Shown here piece by piece: positions 10,051 through 14,696 of a stretch of 39,002 nucleotides of DNA. Source of the stretch: an uncultured Spartobacteria bacterium (lineage in GTDB: Bacteria; Verrucomicrobiota; Verrucomicrobiia; Chthoniobacterales; Chthoniobacteraceae); contig CAIWVL010000135.1 of NCBI GenBank assembly GCA_903916085.1, positions 1-39,002 on the forward strand, read 5' to 3'. Position 1 is the stretch's first letter, and every line of letters starts with the position of its first letter. A model generated the notes under the pieces. It saw only the letters and a program-made list of their open reading frames with translations, did not search any database and was not told the origin of the DNA. A program made the translations under genes and the position numbers.

Positions 10051-10917
10051 TTACAGTTCGCCTCCATGACATAAGAATGTTCTGTAAGATCTTAAAATGT
10101 CTAATATGGCCAAAACCAATACCTGAATTTTTTCTTCAGAAGTAGCTTGAGCTGGGACTTCAATCTCAATCTCGAAGGGCCAAGGCTGCGTCTCGGGATA
10201 GGGACTAAGATGCCCAGCAAGAAAGCGCGCCTGGCGACCGGCTTCGTCCCTCGGGATAATCATGACGGGATCAGCTTCAACGGGCACGAGGGTTCGGAGG
10301 CGCCTCAGCGCGGGTGCGACCACGTCTTGAGCAATCACACTGCTGTTCACATGAGCGCGCAGGGAGTTGGTCTTCTCCGTGCTGCGTAGTGTGATAATCC
10401 CGTGAGGTGAAATCCGCTGAAATTCCGCGCGAAAAAACAACGCGTCATGGGCTTCGGCATCAAGCTTCCAGCGAAGTGCCAGTTCTCCGGGACTTAGTTC
10501 GCAAGGTGTCTTGTTGTCTTCAAATCCGCCTGGATGCACCAGAGGATAACCAAAAACTGCGTAATCCTGAGAGAGCGAGGGGCCCAGCGTCAGCAGCATA
10601 AGAAGCTTTACAACTGCAGAGATTGTTTCAGTGTGCCCAGGGTCGAGGCCTCCAAACAAACTCACCCGCATCGGGACACCTCCAGCACGTTTTCCCAATA
10701 CTAGAGATTTCGTTATTTCGTGACGCACGCCACCGATCGTGAGCGGGTAAACACTTGTAATTAGACTCGGATGTTGGAGTGCCCGGAGCGGCTCCAGCAG
10801 ACTGAACGCATTACGTTTAGAGCACACCCCATCAAGAGGCAAGTTCACACTATTTTGCGGCGTGCAATCAAATGGAGTGAGGGAAGATTCGACTTGGAGA
10901 TTCATAATTTTGAGCAC
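10051..10917 (-). CDS. M14-like (succinylglutamate desuccinylase/aspartoacylase type) pseudoenzyme
   Basis: 288 aa, starting at GTG 10917 or ATG 10905. It aligns by eye with the M14-like protein at 13728-14696. RVSLFGGLDPGHTE matches KVGIFAGIHGDEPA, and YPLVHPGGF matches YPVCNPGGY. HGIITLRSTE matches DGIIALHSDD, and the C-termini FEIEIEVPA and RSYRTFLCHGGEL match FELILESPA and EYRKFIAYGANL. The zinc ligands are lost: His127 becomes Asp92, Glu130 becomes His95, and His212 becomes Arg178. The catalytic-Glu position is kept (Glu253). It is therefore probably not a zinc peptidase; a regulatory, binding or chaperone-like role is possible but unknown. It lies between cysK and cysE and shows no signal peptide. 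Confidence 0.65.
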   Translation of the reverse strand: MLKIMNLQVESSLTPFDCTPQNSVNLPLDGVCSKRNAFSLLEPLRALQHPSLITSVYPLTIGGVRHEITKSLVLGKRAGGVPMRVSLFGGLDPGHTETISAVVKLLMLLTLGPSLSQDYAVFGYPLVHPGGFEDNKTPCELSPGELALRWKLDAEAHDALFFRAEFQRISPHGIITLRSTEKTNSLRAHVNSSVIAQDVVAPALRRLRTLVPVEADPVMIIPRDEAGRQARFLAGHLSPYPETQPWPFEIEIEVPAQATSEEKIQVLVLAILDILRSYRTFLCHGGEL

Positions 10918-11997: not shown

Positions 11998-12098
11998 GTT
12001 AGTGCGTCGTGGGTTATAAATTTGAGAGGTATTCAATAAATGATTGGGACTAGACACTTGGTTACATATAAAAGACGTTACAGAACGGTCGCTCGGGT

Positions 12099-13727: not shown

Positions 13728-14696
13728 CTACAGGTTGGCCCCGTATGCGATAAACTTCCTGTACTCAGAGAGAACCGAGGCAAGGGCCAGGCTAAATGCC
13801 CGGCGTTGCTCCACCAAGGGAGAAACAGCTGGACTCTCCAGAATGAGCTCAAAAGGCTGCGGCTTCTGCTCCCGATGAGCGCTCAGAATACCGTCATAAC
13901 TGTCGTAAATCATGCCATTAACAGCATGAAACCCGTCAATCACAGGCCGGACATCGCGAGCTTGAGCGACTTCAGCCGCTTTGAGCGCAGGCTCCAACAA
14001 CTGCCGCGCCAGTACGTCGCCCCGCGCAAATCCATAAAATCCAGGAGAAGTATCGTCGGAATGCAGTGCAATAATTCCGTCAAACTGGCGCGCCTGAATT
14101 TCTCGCTCCAACACCCGGACTTCCTGCTCCTGCGAGCCGCGCCAAAACTCCCGATTCAAATCCTTTCCGGAAGGCGAATGCCTCGTACCGGCAAGGTATC
14201 CGCCAGGGTTGCAAACGGGATACAACCAAAGCTCGAAATCGCGGCCTATTTCCGGCGTTTCATCAAGCTCCCGGATAAAGTCCATCAAACCAAGAATACC
14301 TGCCGGTTCATCGCCATGAATACCGGCAAAGATGCCTACTTTGATGCGGTCTTTCACCACGCTGGTACGCTGAAAGTGAAATCGTGGTAGCCACACCGTC
14401 TCGCCTGCAATCTCCCAAATAGACACGGCATCAGCGCGCAAGCAGTTGGACTTGGCGGCCTGTAGATACAACGGCTGCAGGAGCTCACGCAACGCGGGAC
14501 GATGCTGCCGAGACAATTGCTCCAGCACTTGCGCCGCCGCGCGCTGCACCGAGGCACTGACCCGCGGACTCAGCAACTTTTCGGAAGCAGGCTTTACGCC
14601 CACCACAGCCGCACCCGCCCTGGACGACATCATGCCACGGTCCCCAGACTGGGCAGACCGAGCGGCACGAGGCGTCCGTAGAGGCGTGGTTTTCAT
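13728..14696 (-). CDS. M14-type zinc carboxypeptidase/deacylase (succinylglutamate desuccinylase/aspartoacylase-like)
   Basis: 322 aa. A catalytic domain from about residue 75 has the M14-like zinc site His127-x-x-Glu130 (FAGIHGDEPAG) and His212 (IIALHSDD). It also has the substrate-binding DLNREFW (179-185) and Glu287 in FELILESPA as probable general base. All key residues are intact, so the enzyme should hydrolyse an amide bond: a C-terminal amino acid, or an N-acyl group as in AstE/aspartoacylase. About 70 Ala/Arg-rich residues precede the domain; no clear signal peptide is visible. It sits between the sulfate-binding protein (51 bp upstream) and the porin, with a degenerate paralog two genes further on. 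The substrate is unknown; release of a sulfur-containing amino acid is a guess from context. Confidence 0.75.
   Translation of the reverse strand: MKTTPLRTPRAARSAQSGDRGMMSSRAGAAVVGVKPASEKLLSPRVSASVQRAAAQVLEQLSRQHRPALRELLQPLYLQAAKSNCLRADAVSIWEIAGETVWLPRFHFQRTSVVKDRIKVGIFAGIHGDEPAGILGLMDFIRELDETPEIGRDFELWLYPVCNPGGYLAGTRHSPSGKDLNREFWRGSQEQEVRVLEREIQARQFDGIIALHSDDTSPGFYGFARGDVLARQLLEPALKAAEVAQARDVRPVIDGFHAVNGMIYDSYDGILSAHREQKPQPFELILESPAVSPLVEQRRAFSLALASVLSEYRKFIAYGANL

Follow-up and report, generated by a model that had tools for sequence, protein, structure and literature searches.

A zinc-less paralogue of an AstE/AspA-type deacylase in Chthoniobacteraceae is very probably a conserved pseudoenzyme

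Has a carboxypeptidase-like protein without its zinc ligands simply been broken, or has it been kept for a task other than catalysis? The question is raised by P1, a gene set among cysteine genes in a 39,002 bp stretch of DNA from an uncultured Spartobacteria bacterium (contig CAIWVL010000135.1; the whole stretch is referred to here as the window), which also encodes P2, a paralogue with an intact zinc site (Table 1). The strand, length and reading frame of P1 agreed with the initial annotation. In our view, held with considerable confidence, the P1 protein represents a conserved pseudoenzyme. As an old paralogue of a cysteine-cluster zinc deacylase (P2 type), it has retained the fold but not the zinc site. 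Relatives in several genera also lack the zinc-holding residues, so that P1 is probably a long-kept, non-catalytic protein and not one broken gene.

Table 1. Coordinates of P1, its active-site codons and neighbouring features in the window.
Feature	Position	Strand	Remarks
CysE/EpsC-type serine O-acetyltransferase, downstream neighbour of P1	9044..9973	-	TIGR01172 E 3e-45, under equivalog cut-off
P1, zinc-less AstE/AspA-M14-like protein, very probable pseudoenzyme	10051..10917	-	288 aa; GTG start at 10917, stop at 10051
E253 codon of P1, at general-base Glu E287 of P2	10159..10161	-	Glu in window copy only
R178 codon of P1, at zinc ligand H212 of P2	10384..10386	-	Arg in 5/5 orthologues
H95 codon of P1, at zinc ligand E130 of P2	10633..10635	-	H/A/L/N/S across five copies
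D92 codon of P1, at zinc ligand H127 of P2	10642..10644	-	Asp/Glu in 5/5 orthologues
CysK, cysteine synthase A, upstream neighbour of P1	11035..12144	-	TIGR01139 427 bits; true start probably near 12000
Putative porin (Porin_5), between CysK and P2	12160..13716	-	
P2, paralogue with intact zinc site (HGDE, DLNREFW, LHSDD, ESP)	13728..14696	-	Pfam AstE_AspA_cat 6e-12
Sulfate ABC-transporter substrate-binding protein, upstream of P2	14748..15740	-	

The kinship of the two proteins was evident from their alignment. BLASTP matched residues 83-288 of P1 with residues 118-322 of P2 (24% identity and 44% positives over 206 aa, one gap, E 3e-17), bearing out an earlier by-eye comparison that had extended to the C-terminal tail. 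A profile of the active family matched P1 at 3.2e-31, P1 not being among its rows. No AstE_AspA or M14 match to P1 was found in Pfam at E≤1, and an AlkA_N hit (E 0.044) was ignored as lying below the family cut-off. P2 (322 aa) also matched Peptidase_M14, and its best named relative was the N-acetyl-ornithine deacetylase model NF052223 of NCBIfam, with a score below the cut-off of that model. A third weak match in the same genome (G000:C108, E 0.005) was dropped, its ORF resembling FliP by eye.

The zinc ligands H127, E130 and H212 of P2 and its general base E287 showed no variation when 68 active relatives were aligned, nor in any of the 83 active sequences counted. They correspond in P1 to D92, H95, R178 and E253, exactly as the initial annotation had assigned them. 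The HxxE zinc motif was thus replaced by D92-x-x-H95 in the window copy and by D/E-x-x-(A/L/N/S) in the other orthologues, the third ligand His was absent throughout the P1 group, and the substrate-binding Asn-Arg pair of P2 (N181-R182, in the DLNREFW motif) was A147-L148 in P1 and variable in its orthologues. The catalytic Glu had been described as retained, which holds for the window copy but not for the other four orthologues (G032, G020, G026 and G028), in which the position is Phe in three and Tyr in one. Similarly, the proposed loss of all three zinc ligands applies to the canonical set and not strictly beyond it, since metal binding by Asp and His is possible in principle. Against metal at these sites are the Ala, Leu, Asn or Ser found at position 95 in the orthologues and the Arg found at position 178 in all five copies. 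Zinc catalysis has very likely been lost in P1.

Structure prediction was consistent with the proposal that the carboxypeptidase fold had been kept. The AlphaFold model of P1 had a pLDDT of 85.2 and a pTM of 0.82 (pLDDT 86.6 for P2), the alignments having been built from window and fetched-locus proteins, such that the one for P1 took in active relatives and may steer the model towards their fold. Compared with solved carboxypeptidases, the predicted P1 model scored a Z of about 20 across residues 32-283, with some 220-240 residues aligned, and the P2 model a Z of 24-27. The closest known systems include the putative Shewanella metallopeptidases 3b2y, 2qvp and 3ieh and REP34 of Francisella (4oko), which share the fold (Z 18-20 with the P1 model, 25-27 with that of P2) and are sequence relatives of P2; a profile search of solved structures with P1 returned no credible relative by sequence. 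P1 resembles the P2-type deacylases (Pfam AstE_AspA_cat, PF24827) in fold, order of elements, C-terminal tail and PFE(I/L) strand, but differs from them in lacking the canonical zinc ligands, the Asn-Arg pair and a Pfam match to their families.

P1 was found in five Chthoniobacteraceae genomes, namely that of the window, G032, G020, G028 and the cultured Chthoniobacter flavus Ellin428 (G026; NZ_ABVL01000010.1), and none of the five copies had a canonical ligand; the family comparison thus established that the ligand loss is conserved in orthologues. Within the genus of the window only one of 12 genomes, that of the window itself, carried P1, several of the 12 being incomplete. A second family of the same order contributed eight genomes with more diverged zinc-less copies, in which the first ligand is Gln, Ser, Lys or Arg (G075 alone keeps His), the second is Asp in all, the third is Gln, Arg, Glu or Ala, and the catalytic Glu has become Cys, Arg or Ser. 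The loss is less uniform there than in the P1 group, yet no member has a complete zinc site. Scanning genome contigs with the P1 sequence alone gave no relative, while an alignment-based scan matched eight records, comprising C. flavus Ellin428, three other Chthoniobacter, Chthoniobacteraceae or Spartobacteria MAGs and four Verrucomicrobiota MAGs. The viral contigs scanned held no relative, and a phylum-wide search, at a cut-off of 1e-43 that would miss distant relatives, found no stronger one outside the class. We also noted that G074 carries an additional zinc-less copy of just 160 aa, cut or decayed (L113:2343-2822(-)), and a further degenerate second M14-like copy (L109, G043:C107:500-2700) in a genome that holds an active one as well.

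All zinc-less copies of the order formed one branch (support 100/100), which persisted when the columns of the catalytic motifs were removed and active copies were brought in from further orders of the class; long branches might nonetheless make a single origin look firmer than it is. R77, D118, A120, S192 and A196 were common to all 13 zinc-less copies, each occurring in fewer than 20% of active ones. The AU test rejected P1 as a recent duplicate of the P2 found in the window's own genus (p 7.5e-7) and as one derived from the P2 clade of the main family (p 0.006). Close pairs in the second family gave dN/dS values of about 0.08, 0.09, 0.19, 0.21, 0.22 and 0.44, indicating purifying selection. 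Together with the single branch and the ligand loss conserved among orthologues, these values argue against local decay.

Decay confined to the window genome, with P1 there losing its function, has some points in its favour. Within its group the window copy has the longest branch, departs further from the other members at H128, W150 and K151, and belongs to a gene absent from the 11 other genomes of its genus; the branch length and this restricted occurrence make relaxed constraint in the window copy possible. On the other side, the open frame is full length, the fold is confidently predicted, and four other species carry ligand replacements of the same kind. Codon positions 1, 2 and 3 differ between the window copy and that of G032 at 127, 106 and 185 sites, respectively, and with dS near saturation it is the third-position excess alone that speaks for constraint. 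Taken together we regard decay as very unlikely.

Further zinc-less lineages were seen in the class. Among the 21 lower-scoring class-level copies inspected, out of a larger set with a few dozen middle-scoring matches as well, six more lacked the ligands; family f37 accounted for five of them and G226 for the sixth. The tree joined the f37 zinc-less copies to P1 (99/97), but they lack D118, A120, S192 and A196, and their grouping with the active f37 copy was not rejected (AU p 0.071), which makes a separate origin the likelier one; a common origin with P1 is accordingly disfavoured. Zinc-less copies have thus probably arisen at least twice, with the G226 copy possibly representing a third origin. 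This copy (L166, G226:C17:16500-17700) is single, belongs to family f24 and reads GGLDHRE and RLETT at its motifs. In G288 an apparently independent zinc-less copy directly follows an active one, the gene order being porin, substrate-binding protein, CysK, active copy and zinc-less copy.

What P1 might do was considered from its gene neighbourhood. Of the 31 loci examined for active P2, 18 had a gene for CysK, CysE or a sulfate-binding protein close by. For the zinc-less loci of the order the count was 2 of 13 (the window and G032), these being the two genera in which P1 sits inside the cysK/P2 cluster. Both clusters, and the G288 copy placed behind a substrate-binding protein, CysK and an active copy, speak for some tie to cysteine. 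Our guess, from this neighbourhood and the sub-threshold match to the N-acetyl-ornithine deacetylase model, is that P2 is a deacylase for N-acetyl-serine or N-acetyl-cysteine; no functional study of a P2-type deacylase was found in the literature. For P1 itself, the initial annotation had proposed a sensor between CysK and CysE, and a sensor or binding partner of these enzymes in the window genome would suit the placement of P1 between the two genes, on the same strand and with gaps of about 117 and 77 bases, as well as the GC3 of 0.50 that P1 and CysE share as the lowest in the cluster. The cysK-P1-cysE order is real but not general, being seen in one genome only, and P1 has no cys gene nearby in G020, G026 or G028, three of the five P1 genomes. 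Such a role is therefore improbable. Directly upstream of P1 in G020 and G028 we observed a fusion gene whose product joins a GT20 part of the trehalose-phosphate synthase type to a PTS HPr domain (L034:6959-8794(+) and L036:9968-11980(-)). Three of the second-family genomes (L124:10475-13551(+), L110 and L117) have the zinc-less gene divergent to genes for a squalene-hopene cyclase and a radical-SAM protein (DUF3463).

An alternative that overlaps with the pseudoenzyme reading casts P1 as a subunit that joins P2 in hetero-oligomers and tunes it, as partner or inhibitor. Both genes are present in four of the five P1 genomes, one cluster holds both in the window and G032, and an active/zinc-less tandem occurs in G288. 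However, P1 and P2 are on different contigs in G020 and G026, and active P2 was not detected in G028, a MAG, nor in the eight second-family genomes, all drafts. A partner or inhibitor role, as first put forward, can therefore not be general, and we consider it a rather doubtful account of P1. All of the genomes would accommodate a free-standing role in ligand binding or regulation, while the P2-partner role fits four of the five P1 genomes and not the second family. A non-catalytic P1, the broader part of the original proposal, remains the best reading given the conserved ligand loss and the maintenance of the gene, whereas the specific partner and sensor roles did not hold as stated.

Under the pseudoenzyme reading, a zinc deacylase paralogue of the AstE/AspA-M14 fold would have kept its fold while losing the zinc site, the Asn-Arg pair and, in the majority of copies, the catalytic Glu as well. 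Among the P1 copies of Chthoniobacteraceae a conserved acidic residue (D92) and a conserved Arg (R178) stand at ligand positions, along with a newly conserved E251. From the alignment and the known arrangement of the two zinc-binding His residues in carboxypeptidases, we propose that D92, R178 and E251 would occupy the place of zinc, a salt-bridge cluster steadying the pocket instead of a metal. D/E92, R178, E249 and E251 are kept in all five members of the P1 group, and this conservation, with the capacity of D92 and H95 in the window copy to bind metal, might also suggest an enzyme with a metal-free or differently metallated mechanism acting through D92, R178 and E249/E251. We consider such an enzyme unlikely, since H95 is not conserved, the residue set is missing from the second family, and we know of no metal-free hydrolase in the carboxypeptidase (M14/AstE) fold. 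As the second family does not share the D92/R178/E251 set, the charge cluster cannot account for what the branch as a whole does. As a pseudoenzyme, P1 would act by binding and without hydrolysis, most likely as a cytosolic ligand- or protein-binding regulator; the link to cysteine or acyl-amino-acid metabolism is our tentative suggestion, for which we would claim somewhat less than an even chance.

Eukaryotic M14 pseudopeptidases (AEBP1/ACLP, CPXM1, CPXM2, CPD domain III and Ecm14) likewise combine a carboxypeptidase fold and lost catalytic residues with non-catalytic roles; all five keep H69, lose at most two zinc ligands and are mostly secreted (PMC11266112). P1, in contrast, is a bacterial protein in which no signal sequence is evident and none of the three canonical ligands remains. 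A literature search of partial coverage found no description of this zinc-less lineage. The M14-fold pseudoenzymes treated in PMC11266112 are thus eukaryotic with a partly kept zinc site, whereas the bacterial lineage has no canonical ligand. It is conceivable, though on balance doubtful, that the class has repeatedly made a zinc-less twin of its cysteine-cluster deacylase as a sulfur-amino-acid regulator, and that in one family the twin has replaced the active enzyme. The P1 case also draws attention to the P2 deacylase itself, encoded so often beside sulfate-uptake and cysteine genes, and the presence of a zinc-less copy together with its zinc-bearing paralogue in one cultured species provides a tractable case of enzyme-fold reuse.
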